A stretch of 64,000 nt of DNA from Voacanga thouarsii (Eukaryota > Streptophyta > Magnoliopsida > Gentianales > Apocynaceae): the NCBI GenBank assembly GCA_026120185.1, contig JANUWF010001938.1:992001-1056000 (forward strand). The letters are read 5' to 3'. The notes under the pieces are model-generated. The model ran no database searches and was not told the DNA's origin. It saw nothing but the letters and a program-made list of their open reading frames with translations. The first letter of the stretch is position 1. Each line of letters starts with the position of its first letter. This document shows positions 2,435 through 54,283 of the stretch, piece by piece. Both the position numbers and the translations under genes were made by a program.

Positions 2435-2792
2435 TATTATAAAATTTGGGTAGTATTAGAATAAAATCTACCAACTATACACTAAGAAAATTATAACTAT
2501 TCTTTGTACAAAAATTTCTTCAAACTTCTCTCTTTCTTTTCTCTTACAATTTTCTCTAATCTTTCTTTCACTAATCTTTTTTTTACAAAAATAATGGTGT
2601 ATTACAAACTTAGAGAATAACTTTATTTATAGAGCTTTAATTAGTGGAATACATCATGACATACATCATCTTCCACTAATCTTAATTAGTGGTGTCTCCA
2701 TTAAATGGTGGACACCCATAAAAATCTTCTCTAATAATTCGCATAAATCCATAATTAGTGGAGTCTCCAATAATTTTAAGATATTCATAACA
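2435..2792 (-). repeat. 3' LTR of copia element A
   Basis: 358 bp. It reads TGTTATGAATAT at its 5' end on the minus strand. The other terminus has decayed from TGTTATAAAA to TATTATAAAA (plus-strand reading), and the GTTAG target duplication lies immediately outside. It contains the family TATA region (CTATAAATA) and the A/G-rich U5. Confidence 0.88.
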
Positions 2793-2916
2793 CTCCCCCT
2801 TGAATGTCCATCTATTACATAAATAATATGCCTCGTTAAAATCTTATTAGATAAAAATTCAGTGGGAAAAAAATCTAATGAAAGAAAAAGAGTACACTAT
2901 TCTATATGTCTGTTTA

Positions 2917-5900
2917 TTACTCCCCCTGATGAGATGATTCATTTAAATCTTTAAACCGACGCATACTGCTTTTATATCTCAACTTTTCAAATGTTGCAGT
3001 CGGTAAAGTCTTCGTGAAAATATCTGCAAGGTTGTCACATGACCGAATTTGTAGCACATCAATTTCACATTTCTTCTAGAGTTCATGAGTAAAGAAGAAT
3101 TTTGGTGAAATATGTTTTGTCCGATCTCCTTTAATATATCCTCTTCATAATTGAACTATGCAAGCTGTATTGTCTTTATAAAGAGGAGTTGGAATATCTT
3201 TGATCGATGATAATTCACAACTTTCTCGGATATAATGAATCACGGATCTTAGCTATACACATTGTCGACTTGCTTCATGAATGGCTATAATTTCAGCATG
3301 ATTTGAAGAAGTAGCTGCTATAGACTGCCTTATAGAACGCCATGATATAGCAATATTTTCACGTGTAAATAGATAGCCCGTTTGAGAACGTGTTTTATGT
3401 GGATCAGATAAATAACTAGTATCTGCATAACCAATCAATGTTGGGTTAGTTTTATTTGAATAAAATAATCCGAAATCAATTGTACATTGGAGATATCGAA
3501 TGACTTGTTTAATTCCATTCCAATGTCGTCGTGTTGGTGAAGAACTAAAATTTGCTAATAAATTGACAACAAAAGCAATATCAGGTCGTGTATTATTAGC
3601 AAGATACATCAATGCACCAATTGCACTGAGTTATGGTACTTCAAGACCAAGGAGTTCTTCATCAGCTTCTTGAGGTCGAAAAGGATCTTTATTCACATTT
3701 AATGATCGGACGATCATTGGAATATTCAATGGATGTGCTTTATCCATGTAAAATCTTTTTAGTACTTTTGCTATATATGTTGATTGATAAATTAATGTTC
3801 CACTTTTCAAATGTTCAATTTGTAAATCAAGACAAATTTTGGTTTTACCAAAATCCTTGATTTCGAATTCTCTTTTTAAATAATTAATTGTTTCTTGGAG
3901 CTCTTCAGGAGTTCCAATAAGATTAATATCATCAACATATATAGTTAGTATCACAAATTTAAAACCAGATTTCTTAATAAAAATACATGGACATACCTGG
4001 TCATTTTTAAATCTCGCTTTCAATAAATATTCACTAAGACGTGTGAACCACATGCGCCTAGATTTCTTCAGTCCATATAATGATTTCTGCAATTTGATGG
4101 GGTAATTTTCACGGGGATAATGTTTATATGCTTCAGGCATATGAAATCCTTTGGGAATTTTCATGTAAATATCATTTTCTAAATTTTCATACAAGTAAGT
4201 AGTGACAACATCTAATAGGCGCATATCTATCTTTTCATGAACTGCCAAACTGATAAGATATCGGAGTGTAATACCATCAACAATAGGAGAATAAATTTCA
4301 TCATAATCAATACCTGATCTTTGTGAAAAACCTTGGGCTACTAATCCCACTTTATATCGAACGATTTCACTATTTTCATTGCGCTTTCGCACAAAATATC
4401 CATTTGTAGCCAACAGGTTTTACACATTCTGGTGTTCGGACTGCAGGTCCGAAGACTTCACGTTTTGTCAGTGCATTTAACTCCGATTGAATCGCATCTT
4501 TCCATTGCAGTTCATCTTTTATATGTCGACATTCATCAACTAATATTGGTTTAGGATCATCATTATCCTGTGTAACATCAAGAGATATATTGTATGCAAA
4601 TATATTATTAATAACAGTTTCTATCCTATTACAACTTTTATCGGAAGTGGTATAATTAATAGAAATTTCAGTATTACTTTCATCAACTTCTGGTTCTTTG
4701 TCATTAGTTCTCTCTTGGCCTTTATCATTTCTTTTTTCAATATGATCTTCTTGATCATTTAATCTTCTTTTATTTCGATGATTTTTATCTTTAGAACCAA
4801 GAGGTTGGCCACGCTTCTAGCGTGTTTTTGACTCAGCAGCTATAGGTATAATATTTTGTTCTGTTGGAACTTCAATTCGAATAGGAGTATTTATAATTGG
4901 AATATGCTAGTTTGTAACTATTCTGGAGTCAACAAAAGCGTCTGGCATTTGATTTGCAATGCTTTGCAAATGAATTATCTTTTGAACTTCAAGTTCACAT
5001 GCGCTTGTGCGCGGATCAAGATAATTTAATTATGTTGTCCAAGTAAGATCATTTTTATACTGTTTTGGTTCTACCCCTAATTTAGGGAATAATGATTCAT
5101 CAAAATGACAATCAGCAAATCTTGCTGTGAATACATCTCCTATCAGGGGTTCAACATACCTGATAATAGAGGGAGAATCATATCCAACGTATATCCCATT
5201 TCTTCTTTGAGGACCCATCTTTGTACGTTGATTTGGTGCAATTGGAATATATACAGCACGCCTAAAAATTCTTAAATAAGCAATATTTGGTTCTGACCCA
5301 AAAGCCAATTGCAAATGAGAGAATTTATGATAACTAGCTGGTCTTATGCGTACAAGTGCTGTAGCATGTCCCCAGGCAGATGTTGGGAGATTTATTTTCA
5401 TTAATAATGGTCTAGCAATTAATTGTAATCGTTTAATCAAAGATTCAGTAAGACCATTTTGTGTGTGAACGTGAGTTATAAGATGTTCAACGTTAATCCC
5501 AATTGACATGCAATATGCATCAAAAGCATGTGATGAAAATTCACCAGTATTATCCAAACGGATATTTTTAATGTGATGGTCAGGAAATTGTGCTCGTAAT
5601 TTAATTATTTGAGTAAGTAATATCGCAAACGCCAGGTTGCGAGTAGATAATAAATATACATGTGACCATCGGGATGATGCATCGATTAAGATCATAAAAT
5701 ATTTTAACAGTCCACATGGTGGATCAATAGGTCCACAAATATCTCCGTGAATCCGTTCGAGAAATGTATGACTTTCAACTCCTACTTTTATTTGTGATGG
5801 TTTAACAATTAATTTTCCTAGGGAACATGCAGTACATGCGAATTTTTCTGATGTCAATATACTTTTATTTTTTAAAGGATGACCATGTGTATTCTCAATG

Positions 5901-6399
5901 ATTCTTCTCATCATGGTAGATTCCAAATGACCCAACCGGTCATGCCAAATGCTAAAAGTAATAGGATCAGTAAATTTCTAATTTACTAGATGATGAATTT
6001 CAATTGTACATATTTTTACAAAATATAGGCCAGTAGAAAAAGACGGCAGTTTTTCTAATACAGATTTCTTACCAAAATGTATTTGAGTAATATAAAGATG
6101 CTTAATCCCATTTTCCTCATTTGTTTCAACATGATACTCATTTCTGCGGATATCTTTAAAACTCAATAAATTTTTTTTCTGAATTTTGAGAAAAATAGTG
6201 CCTTATCAATAATAATTATTGTTCATTTATGCAACTATATATTAGCTCTTCCGAAGCCCTCAATCACATTTGTACTACCGTTTATCGTATAAATATTTAT
6301 TTCTCCTATTTTGAGATCAGAAAAACATTTCTCATTTTTTAGTATGGTGTGTGTAGTTCCACTATCAATAATGCATACATCATCATTAACAACAGCCAT
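2917..6399 (-). pseudogene. Broken pol of copia element A
   Basis: The pol reading starts at the ATG at 6399-6397, 81 nt after the 5' LTR. Recognisable pieces in order: a protease-like DSGTTHT near the start; the GAG-preintegrase/integrase part (open 5935-5030, with HGDICGPIDPPCG and the DASSRWSHVYLL core); reverse transcriptase (open 4413-3631, with LLDVVTTYLYENLEND and an intact YVDD); and RNase H (open 3612-3253). Several stop codons and frameshifts separate the pieces, so no full polyprotein can be made. No gag sequence lies between the leader and this ATG. The last codon is the TAA at 2919-2917, inferred by alignment with the other copies. Confidence 0.85.
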
Positions 6400-6480
6400 T
6401 TGTCTTTTGGCTTTGGTAACGGCAGAAACTCGTGCTTAGTCTTCTGGCTTTTGTAACGATAGAGACTCGTGTTGATAACG

Positions 6481-6767
6481 TGTTATAAAATTTGAGTAGT
6501 GTTAGAATAAAGTCTACACACTAAAAAAATTCTAACTATTATTTCTTTCACAAAATAATGGTGTATTATAAATTTAGAGAATAACTCTATTTATAAAGTT
6601 CTAATTAGTGGAATGCATACATCATCTTCTATTAATCTTAATTAGTGGTGTCTCCACTAAATCGTGGACATCTATAAAAATCTTATATAATAATTCATAT
6701 AAATTCATAATTAGTGGAGCCTCCACTAATTAATAGAGCTTTCAATAATTTTAAGATATTCATAACA
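6481..6767 (-). repeat. 5' LTR of copia element A
   Basis: 287 bp, shorter than its partner through internal deletion in the A/G-rich part. It is flanked outside by GTTAG (6768-6772) and inside by the primer-binding region (6467-6480). The unequal LTR lengths and the mutated terminus of its partner mark A as the oldest of the three copies. Confidence 0.88.
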
Positions 6768-33488: not shown

Positions 33489-33838
33489 TGTTATACAATT
33501 AGGGTAGTGTTAGAATAAAATCTACACACTAAGAAAATTCTAACTATTCTTTGCACAAGAATTTCTCTTCAAACTTCTCTCTTTTTTTCTCTCACAATTC
33601 TTTCTCCAATCTTTCTTTCACTAATCTTTCTTTCACAAAATGATGGTGTATTACAAGCTTAGAGAATAGCTCTATTTATAGAGCTCTAATTAGTGAAATA
33701 CATCATGGCATACATCATCTTCAATTAATGGTGTCTCCACTAAATGGTGGACATCCATAAAAATCTTCTAATAATTCACATAAATCCATAATTAGTGGAG
33801 CCTCTACTAATTAATGGAGATTTCAATAATTCATAACA
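33489..33838 (-). repeat. 3' LTR of copia element B
   Basis: Starts TGTTATGAATTA on the minus strand and is preceded by the polypurine tract (complement of CTCCCCCTTGG, 33839-33849). Confidence 0.92.
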
Positions 33839-33963
33839 CTCCCCCTTGGATGTCCATCCATACATAAAGAATATGCCTCGTTAAAACCTTACTAGATAAA
33901 AACCCAGTGGGGAAAAAAAATCTAGTGAAGGAAAAAGAGTACACTATTCTATATGCATGTTTA

Positions 33964-36099
33964 TTACTCCCCCTGATGAGATGATTCCTTTAAATCTTTA
34001 AACCGACGCATACCGATTTTATATCTCAACTTTTCAAATGTTGCCGTCGGTAAAGTCTTCGTGAAAATATCTCGCGAGGTTGTCACATGACCGAATTTGT
34101 AGCACATCAATTTCACATTTCTTCCGGAGTTCATGAGTAAAGAAGAATTTTGGTGAAATATGTTTTGTCCGATCTCCTTTAATATATCCTCCTCGTAATT
34201 GAGCTATGCAAGCTCGCATTGTCTTCATAAAGAGGAGTTGGAATACCTTTGATTGATGATAATCCACAACTTTCTCGGATATAATGAATCATGGATCTTA
34301 GCCATACACATTCTCGACTTGCTTCATGAATGGCTATAATTTCAAGCATGATTTGAAGAAGTAGTCTGCTATAGATTGTTTCGTAGAACGCCATGATATA
34401 GCAAGTATTTCCACATGTAAATAGATAGCCCGTTTGAGAACGTGCTTTATGTGGATCGGATAAATAACCAAAGATCCGCATAACCTATCAATGTTGGACT
34501 GGTTTTATTTGAATAAAATAATCCGAGATCAATTGTACCTTGGAGATATCGAAGGACTTGTTTAATTCCATTCCAATGTCGTCGTGTTGGTGAAGAACTA
34601 AATCTTGCTAATAAATTGACAATGAAAGCAATATCGAGCCGTGTGTTATTAGCAAGATACATCAATGCACCAATTGCACTCGAGATATGGTACTTCAGGA
34701 CCAAGGAGTTCTTCATCATTTTCTTGAGGTCGAAAAGGATCTTTATCCACATTTAATGATCGGACGATCATTGGAATACTCAATGGATGTGCTTTGTCCA
34801 TGTAAAATCTTTTTAGCACTTTTGCTGTATATGTTGATTGATGAATAAATGTTCCACTCTCCAAATGTTCAATTTGTAAACCAAGGCAAAATTTGGTTTT
34901 ACCAAAATCCTTGATTTCGAATTCTCTTTTTAAATAATCAATTGTTTCTTGGAGCTCTTCAGGAGTTCCAATAAGATTAATATCATCAACATATATAGCT
35001 AATATCACAAATTTAGAACCAGATTTCTTAATAAAAACACATGGACATACCTGGTCATTTTTAAATCCCGCTTTCAATAAATATTCACTAAGACGTGTGA
35101 ACCACATGCGCCCAGATTGCTTCAGGCCATATAATGATTTCTGCAACTTGATGGAGTAAACATTATTTATTGGATGTTGAGAAAAATTTGCTTCCACATT
35201 TTTATTTTTCAATGAAGCTTGATACAATTCAACTAAATGCTTAGCCGTACGACAGTTTCGTGACCAATGACCTTTCATGCCACATCTATAACATATATCC
35301 TCATGCTTTTCTTCAATTTCTTTTTCTTTTCCCTTTTGATCTTTTCTGTTCCACTTCAGGTGGCAAGTATTTCTCACAGTTTGATTATAATTGTGATAAG
35401 AGAAATATCGAGCGTGACTACGACCATAACCACGACCACGGCCACGGCCACGGCCACGACCACGACTATAACGATGGCTTCTGCTGGAGCCAACAGCATT
35501 CACTTCGAGAGTCTTGTAGAGCCGATTGGTCCGGCTTCATGATTTCTCAATAATAACTCATTATTTTTCTCTCGCAATGAGGAGGGCAGTAATTAAATCT
35601 GTAAATTTTGTATACCCCTTTTCTCGATATTGTTCTTTGCAGGACAATATTCGAGGCATGAAAGGTGGAGAATGTCTTCTCCAACATATCTTCATCGATC
35701 ACTTTTTCTCCGCATAATTTTAATTGAGATGTAATTTTATACATTGCGGAGCTATATTCATTCACGGTTTTAAAATCTTGCAACCTCGGGTGCAACCATT
35801 CATACCGTGCGAGTAGGTAGTACGACCATCTTCGAGTGGTCAAATCTTTCTTTTAAATTTACCCACAGGCCATATGGATCTTTTTCGGTAAGATATTCCA
35901 TTTTCAAATTTTCATCGAGATGACGACGAATAAAAATCAAAGCTTTAGCCTTGTTTTGTGCGAGATGCACTATTATTTGCTTGAATAGTTTCACTAAGGC
36001 CTTCGACATTTAGATGCATTTCTGCATCGAGAACCCATGACATATAATTTGTTCCGAAATATCAAGGGCTACAAATTCGAGTTTTGCGATGTTAGCCAT
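33964..36099 (-). pseudogene. gag-RT fusion remnant of copia element B
   Basis: Gag begins at the ATG at 36099-36097 and is broken by frameshifts (open parts 36009-35800, 35843-35547, 35503 onwards). An uninterrupted 284-codon ORF (35503-34649) carries the Arg-Gly-rich box, the zinc knuckle CYRCGMKGHWSRNC and then, after HPINN, switches in frame to the RT part (SIKLQKSLYGLKQSG) including an intact YVDD. RNase H follows in pieces (34752-34447, 34481-34179). A protein uniting nucleic-acid-binding gag and the RT palm would be odd but is probably a deletion by-product. Confidence 0.85.
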
Positions 36100-36197
36100 A
36101 GAGATCAATAAATGCGTACTGTCTTACGGCTTTAGTAGCAGCGAAACTCGTGCTTAGTCTTCGGCTTTTGTACCGGTAGAGACTCGTGCTGATAACG

Positions 36198-36554
36198 TGT
36201 TATAAAATTAGGGTAGTGTTAGAATAAAATCTACACACTACACACTAAGAAAATTCTAACTATTCTTTGCACAAGAATTTCTCTTCAAACTTCTCTCTTT
36301 CTTTCTCTCACAATTCTTTCTCCAATCTTTCTTTCACTAATCTTTCTTTCACAAAATGATGGTGTATTACAAGCTTAGAGAATAGCTCTATTTATAGAGC
36401 TCTAATTAGTGAAATACATCATGGCATACATCATCTTCAATTAATGGTGTCTCCACTAAATGGTGGATATCCATAAAAATCTTCTAATAATTCACATAAA
36501 TCCATAATTAGTGGAGCCTCCACTAATTAATGGAGATTTCAATAATTCATAACA
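36198..36554 (-). repeat. 5' LTR of copia element B
   Basis: Near-identical to its partner. It carries a duplicated ACACTAC giving the 7-bp length difference. The primer-binding sequence CGTTATCAGCACGA follows directly (36197-36184). Confidence 0.92.
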
Positions 36555-48685: not shown

Positions 48686-49054
48686 TGTTATGAATTATTG
48701 GAATCTTTATTAATTAGTGGAGGCTCCACTAATTATGGATTTATGTGAATTATTATAGAAGATTTTTATGGATGTCCACCATTTAGTGGAGACACCACTA
48801 ATTAAGATTAGTGGAAGATGATGTATGCCATGATGTAATCCACTAATTAGAGCTCTATAAATAGAGCTATTCTCTAAGCTTGTAATACACCATTATTTTG
48901 TGAAAGAAAGATTAGTGAAAGAAAGATTAGAGAAAGAATTGTGAGAGAAAGAAAGAGAGAAGTTTGAAGAGAAATTCTTGTGCAAAGAATAGTTAAAAAT
49001 TTCTTAGTGTGTAGTGTGTAGATTTTATTCTAACACTACCCTAATTTTATAACA
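48686..49054 (+). repeat. 5' LTR of copia element C
   Basis: Starts TGTTATGAATTATT, ends TTTTATAACA. A TATA box CTATAAATAGAG lies near position 175 of the LTR. An A/G-rich leader part with AAAGAAAGATTAG repeats follows. The repeated TAATTAGTGGA/TCCACTAATTA words in U3 form short inverted repeats. Confidence 0.95.
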
Positions 49055-49068
49055 CGTTATCAGCACGA
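49055..49068 (+). promoter_or_regulatory. Primer-binding site (possible tRNA-Ile anticodon-arm site)
   Basis: CGTTATCAGCACGA directly abuts the LTR. It lacks the TGG expected when a tRNA 3' end primes. It is complementary to what I remember of nt 27-40 of cytosolic tRNA-Ile(IAU), UCGUGCUAAUAACG, with its C opposite the inosine at position 34. Element B has the same sequence, and A has one G-to-A change. Confidence 0.5.
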
Positions 49069-49134
49069 GTCTCTACCGGTACAAAAGCCAGAAGACTAAG
49101 CACGAGTTTCTACCGTTACCAAAGCCAGAAGACA
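49062..49134 (+). repeat. 36-nt tandem duplication in the copia leader
   Basis: AGCACGAGTYTCTACCG... occurs twice (49062-49097 and 49099-49134), each ending CCAGAAGAC. The second copy ends at the putative splice donor. The duplication is also present in A and B. Confidence 0.85.
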
Positions 49135-49135
49135 G

Positions 49136-50303
49136 GTACGCATTTATTGATCTCTATGGCTAATATCGCTAAACTCGAATTTGTAGCCCTTGATATTTCT
49201 GGAAAAAATTATATGTCATGGGTTCTCGATGCAGAAATGCATCTAAATGCTGAAGGCTTTAGTGAAACTATTCAAGTAAATAATAGTGCATCTGCACAAT
49301 ACAAGGCTAAAGCTTTGATTTTTATTCGTCGTCATCTCGATGAAAATTTGAAAATGGAATATCTTACCGAAAAAGATCCATATGGCACTGTGGGTAAATT
49401 TAAAAGAAAGATTTGACCACTCGAAGATGGTCGTACTACCTACTTGCACGGTATGAATGGTTGCACACGAGGTTGCAAGATTTTAAAACCGTGAATGAAT
49501 ATAGCTCCGCAATGTATAAAATTACATCTCAATTAAAATTATGCGGAGAAAAAGTGATCGATGAAGATATGTTGGAGAAGGCATTCTCCACCTTTCATGT
49601 CTCGAATATTGTCCTGCAGCAACAATATCGAGAAAAGGGGTATACAAAATTTACAGATTTAATTACTGCCCTCCTCATTATAGAGAAAAATAATGAGTTA
49701 TTATTGAGAAATCCTGAAGCCAGACCAATTGGCTCAACGAAGCCTCCGAAGTGAATGTCTGTTGGCTCCAGTGAAAGCCATCGTTATAGTCGTGGTCGTG
49801 GCCATGGCCGTGATCGTGGTCGTGGTTATGGTCGTAGACACGCTCGATATTTCCCTTATCACAATTATAATCAAAGCGTGAGAAATACGGCCACCGAAGT
49901 GGAGCAGAAAAGATCAAAAGGGAAAAGAAAAAGAAATTGAAGAAAAGCATGAGGATATATGTTATAGATGTGGCATGAAAGGTCATTGGTCACGAAACTG
50001 TCGTACGGCTAAGCATTTAGTTGAATTGTATCAAGCTTCATTGAAAAATAAAAATGTGGAAGCAAATTTTTCTCAACATCCAATAAATAATATTGAGGAT
50101 GATGATATTGATCCTGAAGATCTTAATATCAATATTACCCATAAGGATGTCGGATTTTTTTGAACACCCAGACGGTAGGATAGACCATTTAATTGGTGAT
50201 GTCAGTGTCCAGAAGAACTAAAGCCTCACCCTGATATTTTTGTATTTTCATTTTTATTCTATTCTAATAATATTTATGTTTACATATATATATTTGTATT
50301 CAG
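49136..50303 (+). other. Putative intron carrying the whole gag gene (1168 nt)
   Basis: Donor CAG|GTACGC at 49136, branch-point-like TTCTAAT around 50262-50268, T-rich tract, acceptor ATTCAG ending 50303 and followed at once by the pol ATG. Element A has exactly this block missing. The block begins 20 nt before the gag ATG and includes the natural gag stop. Confidence 0.7.
49156..50221 (+). pseudogene. Broken gag of copia element C
   Basis: Starts at the first ATG of the unspliced transcript (MANIAKLEFVALDISGKNY). A UBN2-type gag core follows, then an Arg-Gly-rich box (49785-49850) and the zinc knuckle CYRCGMKGHWSRNC (open 49975-50163). Frameshifts occur near 49400, 49750 and 49940, and an extra T in a T run near 50155 makes an early stop. 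Without that T the frame would end at the TAA at 50219-50221, well before pol, so gag and pol are separate ORFs in this family. Confidence 0.85.
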
Positions 50304-53300
50304 ATGGCTGTTGTTAATGATGATGTATACATTATTGATAGTGGAACTACACACACCATACTAAAAAATGAGAAATATTTTTCTGATCTCAAAATGGGAG
50401 AAATAAATATTTATACGATAAACGGTAGTGCAAATGTAATTGAGGGCTCCGGAAGAGCTAGTATATTGTTGCCTAAAGGAACAACAATTATTATTGATAA
50501 GTCACTATTTTCCTCAAAATCCAGAAGAAATTTATTGAGTTTTAAAGATATCCGCATAAATGGGTATCATGTTGAAACAAATGAGGAAAATGGGATTGAG
50601 CATCTTTTTATTACTCAAATGCATTTGGGTAAGAAATCGGTATTAGAAAAACTGCCGTCTTTTTCTACTGGTCTATATTTTGTAAAAATACGTACAATTG
50701 AAATTTATCATCTAGTAAACCAGAAGTTTACTGATCCTTTTAGCATTTGGCATGACCGGTTGGGTCATCAGGATCTACCATGATGAGAAGAATCATTGAG
50801 AATACACATGGTCATCCTTTAAAAAATAAAAGGATATTAACATCAGAAAAATTCGCATGTACTGCATGTTCCCTAGGAAAATTAATTGTTAAACCATCAC
50901 CAGTAAAAGTAGGAGCTGAAAGTCCTACATTTATCGAACGGATTCACGGAGATATTTGTAGACCTATTGATCCACCATGTGGACCGTTCAAATATTTTAT
51001 GGTCTTAATTGATGCATCATCCCGATGGTCACATGTATGTTTATTATCTACTCGCAACCTAACGTTTGCGAGATTACTTGCTTAAATAATTAAATTACGA
51101 GCACAATTTCCTGACCATCACATTAAAAATATCTGTTTGGATAATGCTGGTGAATTTTCATCACATGCTTCTGATACATATTGCATGTCAATTGGGATTA
51201 ATGTTGAATATCCTGTAGCTCATGTTCACACATAAAATGGTCTTGCTGAATCTTTGATTAAACGATTACAATTAATTGCTAGACCATTATTAATGAAAAC
51301 CAATCTCCCAACATCTGCCTGGGAACATGCTATTCTACATGCTGCAACACTTGTACGTATAAGACCGACTAGTTATCATAAATTCTCTCCTTTGCAATTG
51401 GTTTTGGGTCGAGAACCAAATATTGCTCATTTAAGAATTTTTGGGTGTGCTGTATATATTCCAATTGCACCAAACCAACGTACAAAGATGGATCCTCAAA
51501 GAAGAAAGGGGATATACGTTGGATATGATTCTCCCTCTATTATCGGGTATGTTGAACCCACGACAGGAGATGTATTCACGAGCAAGATTTGCTTGATTGT
51601 CATTTTGATGAATCATTATTCCCTAAATTAGGGGAGAACCAAAACAGCATAAAAAGGATCTTACTTGGACAACATCATTAAATTATCTTGATTCGCGTAC
51701 AAGCGCATGTGAACTTGAAGTTCAAAAGATAATTCATTTGCAAAGCATTGCAAATCAAATGCCAGACGCTTTTGTTGACTCCATAAGAGTTACAAAATCG
51801 CATATTCCAGCTATAAATGCTCCTATTCGAATTGAAGTTCCAACAGAACAAAATATTATACCTATAGCTGCTGAGTCAAAAACACGCCAGAAGCATGGCA
51901 GACCTCTTGGTTCTAAAGATAAAAATCCTCGAAAGAAAATATGATTAAATGATCCAGAAGATCATATTGAAGAAAAGAATGATAAAGACCAAGAGAGAAC
52001 CGATGACAAAGAACCAGAAGTTGATGAAAGTAACACTGAAATTTCTATCAATTATACCACTTCGGTAGAAGTTGGAATCGGATAGAAGCTGTTATTGATA
52101 ATATATTTGCATACAATATATCTCTTGATGTTACACGGGATAATGATGATCCTGAACCAATATCGATTGATGAATGTCGGCATAGAAAAGATTGGTTGCA
52201 ATGGAAAGATGCGATTCAATCGGAGTTAAATGCACCGACAAAACGTGAAGTCTTCGGACTGCAATCCGAACACCAGAAGGTGTAAAACCTGTTGGTTACA
52301 AATGGATATTTGTGCAAAAGCGCAATGAAAAGAGTGAAATCGTTCGATATAAAGCGCGATTAGTAGCCCAAGGTTTTTCACAAAGACCAGGTATTGACTA
52401 TGATGAAACTTATTCTCCTGTTGTTGATGCTATTACACTCCGATATCTTATCAGTTTGGCAGTACATGAAAAGATAGATATGCGCCTATTAGATGTTGTC
52501 ACTGCTTACTTGTATGGAAATTTAGAAAATGATGTTTACATGAAAATTCCGAAGGATTTCATATGCCGAAGCATATAAACATTATCCTCGTGAAAATTAC
52601 TCCATCAAGTTGCAGAAATCATTATATGGCACTGAAGCAATCCGGGCGCATGTGGTTCACACGTCTTAGTGAATATTTATTGAAAGCGGGATTTAAAAAT
52701 GACCAGGTATGTCCATGTGTTTTTATTAAGAAATCTGGTTCTAAATTTGTGATATTAGCTATATATATTGATAATATTAATCTTATTGGAACTCCTAAAG
52801 AGCTCCAAGAAACAATTGATTATTTAAAAAGAGAATTCGAAATCAAGGATTTTGGTAAAACCAAATTTTGCCTTGGTTTACAAATTGAACATCTGGAGAG
52901 TGGAACATTTATTCATCAATCAACATATACAGCAAAAATGCTAAAAAGATTTTACATGGACAAAGCACATCCATTGAGTATTCCAATGATCGTCCGATCA
53001 TTAAATGTGGATAAAGATCATTTCCGACCTCAAGAAAATGATGAAGAACTCCTTGGTCCTAAAGTACCATATCTCAGTGCAATTGGTGCATTGATATATC
53101 TTGCTAATAACACACGACTTGATATTGTTTTTGCTGTCAATTTATTAGCAAGATTTAGTTCTTCACCAACACGACGACATTGGAATGGAATTAAACAAGT
53201 CCTTGGATATCTCCAAGGTACAATTGATCTCGGATTATTTTATTCAAATAAAACCAGTCCAACATTGATAGGTTATGCGAGATCTCTGGTTATTTATCCG

Positions 53301-53790
53301 ATCCACATAAAGCACGTTCTCAAACGGGTTATCTATTTACATGTGAAAATACTTGTTATATCATGGCGTTCTACGAAACAATCTATAGCGACTACTTCTT
53401 CAAATCATGCTTGAAATTATAGCCATTCATGAAGCAAGTCGAGAATGTGTATGGCTAAGATCCATGATTCATTATATCCGAGAAAGTTGTGGATTATCAT
53501 CAATCAAAGGTATTCCAACTCCTCTTTATGAAGACAATGCAGCTTGCATAGTTCAATTACGAGGAGGATATATTAAAGGAGATCGGACAAAACATATTTC
53601 ACCAAAATTATTCTTTACTCATGAACTCCAGAAGAAAGGTGAAATTGATGTGCTACAAATTCGATCATGTGATAACCTCGCAGATATTTTCACGAAGACT
53701 CTACCGACTGCAACATTTGAGAAGTTGAGATATAAAATCGGTATGCGTCAGTTTAAAGATTTAAAGGAATCATCTCATCAGAGGGAGTAA
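50304..53790 (+). pseudogene. Broken pol of copia element C
   Basis: Has its own ATG (MAVVNDDVYIIDSGTTHT), with the protease DSG at residues 11-13. The GAG-preintegrase WHDRLGHQ follows, then the integrase core (HGDICRPIDPPCG, DASSRWSHVCLL), the RT (DETYSPVVDAITLRYL, LLDVVTAYLYGNLE, YGLKQSGRMWF, YIDN in place of YVDD), and RNase H (SWRSTKQSIATTSSNHAE) to the stop at 53790. Frameshifts or stops near 50780, 51085, 51235, 51635, 51945, 52575 and 53410 break it. Confidence 0.88.
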
Positions 53791-53914
53791 TAAATAGACA
53801 TATAGAATAGTGTACTCTTTTTCCTTCACTAGATTTTTTTGCCACTGGGTTTTTATCTAGTAATGTTTTAACGAGGCATATTCTTTATGTAATGAATGGA
53901 CATCCAAGGGGGAG

Positions 53915-54279
53915 TGTTATGAATTATTGGAATCTTTATTAATTACTGGAGGCTCCACTAATTATGAATTTATGTGAATTATTATAAAAGATTTTTATGG
54001 ATGTCCACCATTTAGTGGAGACACCACTAATTAAGATTAGTGGAAGATGATGTATGCCATGATGTAATCCACTAATTAGAGCTCTATAAATAGAACTATT
54101 CTCTAAGCTTGTAATACACCATTATTTTGTGAAAGAAAGATTAGTGAAAGAATGATTAGAGAAAGAATTGTGAGAGAAAGAAATAGAGAAGTTTGAAGAG
54201 AAATTCTTGTGCAAAGAATAGTTAGAATTTTCTTAGTGTGTAGTGTGTAGATTTTATTCTAACACTACCCTAATTTTAT

Positions 54280-54283
<4 letters not shown>
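53915..54283 (+). repeat. 3' LTR of copia element C
   Basis: Same length as the 5' LTR with about eight substitutions, several of them G-to-A as expected from decay of methylated cytosines on the other strand. Confidence 0.95.

Follow-up and report, generated by a model that had tools for sequence, protein, structure and literature searches.

How a retrotransposon that carries gag and pol as separate reading frames makes its Pol protein is the question raised by a stretch of plant DNA from Voacanga thouarsii (64,000 nucleotides [nt] of contig JANUWF010001938.1, positions 992,001 to 1,056,000, referred to here as the window). The window holds three copies of one copia-type family, elements A, B, and C. 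In C, the whole of gag lies in a block with splice-like borders between the leader and pol, while in A the leader runs directly into the pol start codon. We asked whether A is an isolated deletion or the product of a recurrent event, and the evidence points to removal of gag by RNA splicing before reverse transcription.

Results

The junction in elements A and C

On its donor side, the block in C is preceded by the end of the leader, CCAGAAGACAG/GTACGC at 49135/49136 (CAG/GTACGC, with the slash marking the border), and 1168 nt further on the acceptor side reads TTGTATTCAG/ATGGCTG at 50303/50304 (TTCAG/ATG), flush with the pol start codon. The block starts 20 nt 5' of the gag ATG and ends with the base preceding the pol ATG. 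On the minus strand in A, CCAAAAGACAA/ATGGCTG at 6400/6399 places the leader directly on the pol ATG, and the two leaders, of 81 nt each, align with 2 substitutions in the last 11 nt. The internal regions measure 4860 nt in C (49055-53914) and 3688 nt in A (6480-2793). Both junctions, the leader alignment, and these lengths had been put forward in the original prediction and were obtained again when the two sequences were re-read. The same is true of the GT-AG borders, a CTAAT motif, which ends 35 nt 5' of the acceptor, and a T-rich tract: the 84-nt spacer from the gag stop to the pol ATG is 51% T, compared to 28% for gag and 33% for the first kilobase of pol. Scored with a rough, approximate splice-site matrix, the donor of C ranks 2nd of 258 GT dinucleotides and the acceptor 1st of 329 AG dinucleotides. 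Both borders end in CAG, so in a single copy, a deletion at this 3-nt microhomology would yield the identical product. The 101- by 201-nt area around the borders of C contains 241 microhomology pairs of at least 3 nt, 68 of which are longer than 3 nt.

Recurrence of the junction

The doubt between a deletion and a recurrent event that A alone leaves is settled by the genome-wide recurrence of its junction. We searched the window's own assembly (1.346 Gb), using the same patterns read backwards as controls. The exact 18-nt junction was found at 62 places and the 32-nt junction, with at most 3 mismatches, at 111 places, whereas the reversed controls gave 0, so the other family members with an identical gag-less junction that the original prediction had proposed to look for do exist. 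It had also named ragged breakpoints as evidence to the contrary, and the breakpoints are not ragged: when a gap of 0 to 30 nt was left free, 32 of 33 places had the exact join and 1 was 3 nt longer, and a stricter version of the pattern gave 6 of 6 exact joins (the free-gap scan detects only joins within about 30 nt). That A is itself a retrocopy of a spliced RNA, as originally predicted, is supported by the fact that its junction is the recurrent genomic one; taken by itself, A would be compatible with a private deletion.

Unspliced acceptors with at most 3 mismatches number 2090, giving a gag-less share of about 5% (111/2201) among copies with this pol start. Acceptors were used as the denominator because the 4449 donor matches in the genome are not a count of complete elements and include many copies without pol: among 20 donor-positive copies fetched, 8 had pol in the expected place (with the fetched stretch starting within pol in 2 of them), 11 had a common foreign insert, and 1 had other sequence. 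The insert that replaces pol (in L049, L050, L052-L054, L056, and L062-L066) is one common sequence with antisense open frames, and the copies carrying it are a numerous non-autonomous derivative. Its identification as a nucleotide-binding site-leucine-rich repeat (NBS-LRR) fragment was a guess that was not supported on checking.

For the gag-less sample, 40 of the 62 exact places were fetched in addition to A. Two long terminal repeat (LTR) matches were present in 35 of the 40, perfect 5-bp target duplications flank 22 of the 25 copies with both ends readable, and the distances between LTRs run from 0 to 0.11 (leaving aside L048, with 0.21 on a 56-nt comparison). The LTR pairs, the duplications, and the range of distances indicate that the gag-less copies are genuine insertions that accumulated over a long period.

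Number of origins

A tree built from the first 0.9 kb of pol, comprising 27 gag-bearing and 40 gag-less rows, requires 18 changes of state (bootstrap, 18 to 21), and shuffling the labels on that tree gave a mean of 21.3 changes, with 42 of 500 shuffles as low as 18. A tree that places gag-less and gag-bearing copies on opposite sides of one branch is rejected by the approximately unbiased (AU) test (P = 0.00015), and the same split tested with only 7 gag-bearing rows gave an AU P value of 0.0034. The 20 gag-bearing rows added to obtain the 67-row tree were picked from places with 0 to 1 mismatches, which favors younger copies. Both of these trees leave out L042 and the gag-bearing L061 and L068, and an earlier tree leaves out L021 and L042. 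Row A starts 3 nt early in an earlier tree, and its leader is 3 nt short in the comparisons of differentiation and diversity described below; other rows are unaffected.

A single ancestral loss of gag, whether through microhomology or through splicing, could in principle have founded a spreading gag-less subfamily whose pol was later shuffled by template switching. Switching of this kind from a single founder would be expected to leave a drop in diversity and a rise in differentiation beside the junction. Mean differentiation (fixation index [Fst]) is about 0.01 to 0.03 in all distance classes on both sides of the junction, with no peak there, in a comparison that leaves out 3 of the 20 leader stretches. 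On the pol side, diversity in the first 100 nt is similar in the two groups (0.0335 for gag-less and 0.0324 for gag-bearing copies), and two flanking variants occur in all four combinations in both. The CAG at both borders would suit a founding deletion, and the gag-less sister copies L022 and L029 on the tree show that gag-less copies can multiply and suggest that they occasionally do so further. The 18 changes on the tree, the rejected split, and the flat differentiation and diversity nevertheless make a single founder very improbable. The intermixed tree and the missing differentiation peak argue that the loss of gag recurred.

The converse history, in which gag was ancestrally absent from the family and was acquired by some copies, would agree with midpoint-rooted trees, where A lies near the base together with several older gag-less copies, but the gag-bearing L078 and L080 are basal as well, and a distant relative that serves as the outgroup (L069, described below) has gag 5' of pol. 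With this, and with gag-less copies scattered among gag-bearing ones, the ancestral absence that the original prediction had listed as a possible objection has practically no probability left.

Other joins from the same donor and within pol

An intact leader end followed by a base other than G was found at 293 places. In the first 100 of these, 58 were extra copies of a repeat of about 35 nt that the leader contains (e.g., at 49055-49135) and that is expanded in many copies, 14 were donors with a base change, and 28 were joins. Among the 28 joins, 23 lead to the family pol ATG and 2 to the pol ATG of a second subfamily, while the remaining 3 lead to a position within gag that is preceded by AG in C (49234), to a site after AG in a captured insert, and, in the last case, to unassigned sequence. 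In the second subfamily (L113 and L114), pol is 76.7% identical at the DNA level, and the same leader is joined precisely to its pol ATG. A shared splice donor would leave just this trace: a 5' border that stays fixed while the 3' borders vary, each of them preceded by AG wherever an unspliced form was available for comparison.

A third explanation needs no splicing and assumes that deletion or template jumping took place repeatedly at the CAG repeat; it has to be weighed against these joins. The CAG common to both borders is what it predicts, although the splice consensus predicts that too. However, in spite of the 68 longer microhomologies in the area of C, 1 of 33 places departs from the exact join (among joins within about 30 nt), and further AG sites are found joined to this donor, so that we find this explanation hardly credible.

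Splice-like losses are also seen inside pol. Of the deletions of at least 50 nt in pol of gag-less copies, 7 of 9 lie at GT-AG pairs (3 with small base changes at the join). One of them, 52707-53148, pairs the top-ranked donor with the second-ranked acceptor of C, and the acceptors of the other GT-AG losses in pol rank low (51, 112, and 186 of 329). The stretch 52707-53148 is missing at 46 places genome-wide (control, 0). An enrichment of pol-intron loss among gag-less copies had been expected and was not found for this stretch: by position, 2 of the 46 copies are gag-less, in an overlap compared by eye against 100 of the 111 gag-less places, which equals the base rate and indicates that the two losses are independent. 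At least one of the other copies without 52707-53148, C188, carries the unspliced gag-pol acceptor at the right distance. The join 53218-53281 occurs at 4 places, 1 gag-less, 2 gag-bearing, and 1 with unrelated upstream DNA, and L026 carries an altered form of it. In L046, unlike in the GT-AG losses, pol has a deletion flanked by direct repeats, which take in the GTATG donor region.

On the strength of these sequence comparisons, we consider it very probable that the gag-less copies arose by RNA splicing before reverse transcription.

Expression of pol

Element C has a donor before gag, an acceptor abutting the start of pol, and a pol frame with its own ATG. If transcription is assumed to start 30 nt past a TATA-like box at 48855, there is no ATG in the 251 nt up to the donor (48885-49135), as is the case in 61 of 20000 shuffles. 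In gag-bearing copies, the nearest upstream stop in the pol frame lies 36 nt from the ATG in 7 of 8 and 87 nt from it in 1 of 8, and since all 8 have such a stop, a Gag-Pol fusion by simple readthrough is unlikely.

We propose that on the unspliced RNA, a scanning ribosome would meet gag first and make Gag. Splicing from the donor to the acceptor would remove gag whole, and pol would become the first reading frame, from which Pol would be made on its own rather than as a Gag-Pol fusion, as foamy viruses make it. In feline foamy virus, the acceptor reportedly lies inside gag. The spliced RNA would keep the leader, the primer site, and the 3' end and could be packaged and copied, and its reverse transcription would repeatedly seed gag-less copies, which would rely on other copies for Gag. 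From this arrangement of sites and frames, the gag-spliced RNA is likely to be the normal messenger for Pol.

Several observations weigh against these conclusions. With regard to recurrence, the split between gag-less and gag-bearing copies was not decisively rejected in a test on 3' pol with just B and C (AU P = 0.115), and most tree branches are weakly supported. The diversity beside the junction on the leader side is lower in gag-less (0.069) than in gag-bearing (0.119) copies, at least partly as a result of choosing copies by a fixed leader end. With regard to the messenger, the pol frame is open for no more than 780 codons in any of the 40 gag-less copies read, so these are best seen as products mobilized in trans and are no proof of a working messenger, and the acceptor AG is mutated in 2 of 8 gag-bearing copies read. 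Finally, splicing within pol is seen in gag-bearing copies too, so part of the splicing in this family is probably cryptic, and the same could hold for the removal of gag. The splice might then be a by-product, with gag-less copies coming from spliced RNA but Pol being translated from full-length RNA through internal ribosome entry or reinitiation. We think this unlikely, given an acceptor flush with the pol ATG, a donor 20 nt 5' of the gag ATG, a leader free of ATG, and the arrival of 25 of the 28 joins at a pol ATG (among the first 100 of 293 places).

Relation to the Bianca lineage

Among the best 120 of 548 matches to the pol piece, the relatives with an organism name are flowering plants. 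The primer sites are CGTTATCAGCACG in C and ACGTTATCAGCACGAG in L069, which may match an edited half tRNA-Ile (with inosine). A search for tRNA genes in the window found none. The primer site and the two separate open reading frames (ORFs), with the gag stop, the spacer, and the pol ATG following one another in C, fit a placement in the Bianca copia lineage, whose members have half tRNA-Ile primer sites and two ORFs that are 172 bp apart on average (PMC6317226), compared to the 84-nt spacer of C.

Scans for the family gave no match in viral contigs, and in genome contigs they gave none at first and then one plant contaminant only. This is L069 (NZ_QPKJ02000023.1), a distant Bianca-like plant element in a record labeled Solirubrobacter, where it is probably plant contamination. 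Its leader is repeated in a similar way and is followed by CAA/GTAAGT. Another part of the contig contains a disrupted gag, a T-rich spacer, and AAAG directly before the pol ATG, an acceptor that departs from the usual CAG. Since a further T-rich stretch, with TTAG, is found 5' of its gag, the L069 family may have an additional leader intron. Eleven protein matches extend 20 residues or more upstream of the pol start (P0010 among them looks rearranged), and in these, F, L, I, Y, and C account for 57% of the upstream part compared to 29% downstream, a share that a translated T-rich tract would give. Together, L069 and these protein matches hint at gag splicing as a lineage-wide rule.

Features of the window

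The coordinates of the three elements and their parts are collected in Table 1. Two LTRs and a 5-bp target duplication, a Ty1/copia trait, were found in A and B, and C sits in an AT repeat. The order of domains in C, with Pol_BBD before an RVT_2-type reverse transcriptase, is that of copia elements; a gag_pre-integrs match in 50304-50780 is weak (20.2 bits; cutoff, 28.4), and a profile search of the piece 50756-51082 gave no integrase match. The LTRs of A (6767-6481 and 2792-2435) differ at 30 of 268 sites (Kimura two-parameter [K2P] distance, 0.123), which makes A old. About 75 nt of its 3' LTR are missing from its 5' LTR, and 19 nt of the 5' LTR are missing from the 3' LTR; these unequal losses are later deletions. 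For element B, we considered an origin as a complementary gag-only splice product and rejected it, as its join has no GT-AG borders and may stem from a template jump.

Table 1. Elements of the copia-type family in the window and their parts
Feature	Position	Strand	Remarks
Element A, gag-less	2435..6767	-	leader joined to pol ATG at 6400/6399; CTAAC duplication
Element B	33489..36554	-	leader and gag present; without pol sequence matching C 50095-52596
Element C	48686..54283	+	LTRs, primer site, leader, gag, T-rich spacer, pol
C 5' LTR, 369 nt, TGTT...AACA	48686..49054	+	
C leader, 81 nt	49055..49135	+	primer site CGTTATCAGCACG, partly repeated stretch, ends at splice donor CAG/
Proposed gag intron, 1168 nt	49136..50303	+	GT-AG borders; contains all of gag; missing in A and 111 genome copies
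gag, frame broken in C	49156..50219	+	zinc knuckle 49882-50160 (Pfam zf-CCHC, 25.1 bits)
T-rich spacer	50220..50303	+	51% T; ends TTCAG, the acceptor region; adjoins pol ATG
pol region of C, frame broken	50304..53914	+	reaches 3' LTR; Pol_BBD 50304-50780; RVT_2 52533-53411
Second GT-AG stretch, in pol, 442 nt	52707..53148	+	absent in 46 genome copies
Third donor, 53218	53218..53388	+	joined in a few copies to AG 53281 or 53388
C 3' LTR	53915..54283	+	LTR K2P 0.022, 8/369 sites differing

Discussion

Splicing is known from other plant LTR elements. The copia elements BARE1 (PMC3735527) and EVADE (PMC12786077) use it to make a Gag-only RNA, and the original prediction had described them correctly in this respect. 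Their splice keeps gag and removes part of the protease region, whereas the block removed here is gag itself, the reverse arrangement. Amplification from genomic DNA did not yield the short BARE1 product (PMC3735527). BARE2 makes no Gag and depends on relatives, having lost only the gag start codon through an 8-bp deletion (PMC3735527). Like BARE2, the gag-less copies described here would depend on Gag from others, but they have lost the whole 1168-nt block, at splice borders and many times. In Ogre, an LTR element with two ORFs and partial splicing, the intron is the region between the ORFs (PMC6317226), and unlike the gag removal proposed here, its splicing keeps gag and lets the whole polyprotein be made. 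We found no description of gag removal for a Pol RNA in a plant element among open-access titles and abstract openings, with most subscription papers falling outside this scope.

The two-ORF layout of Bianca was taken in 2019 as a unique and unexplained strategy of polyprotein expression (PMC6317226), and the cited parts of that paper offer no mechanism for Pol expression, for which we propose the gag-removing splice. Salsa-1, a Bianca element of tomato, has separate gag (352 amino acids) and pol (1173 amino acids) ORFs like the family studied here, and an internal ribosome entry site was predicted and proposed for its expression in 2024 (PMC11044480), a reading that differs from ours. Foamy viruses make Pol apart from Gag from a spliced RNA, which a review calls unique among retroviruses (PMC7828637). 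They are animal retroviruses with env, and the likeness proposed here for the plant family is one of strategy and not of kinship. We lean, with some reserve, toward a more general view in which Bianca elements across flowering plants would use a gag-spliced messenger to make Pol without Gag, a strategy reached independently of foamy viruses, with one donor serving several acceptors and with packaging of the spliced RNA repeatedly seeding gag-less parasites.

If our reading is true, the question of how Bianca elements express Pol would have a concrete and testable answer with exact splice sites, one that reverses the splicing of BARE1 and EVADE and provides a plant parallel to the Pol strategy of foamy viruses. 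It would also give gag-less retrotransposons a simple and recurrent origin, namely, the reverse transcription of an element's own spliced message.
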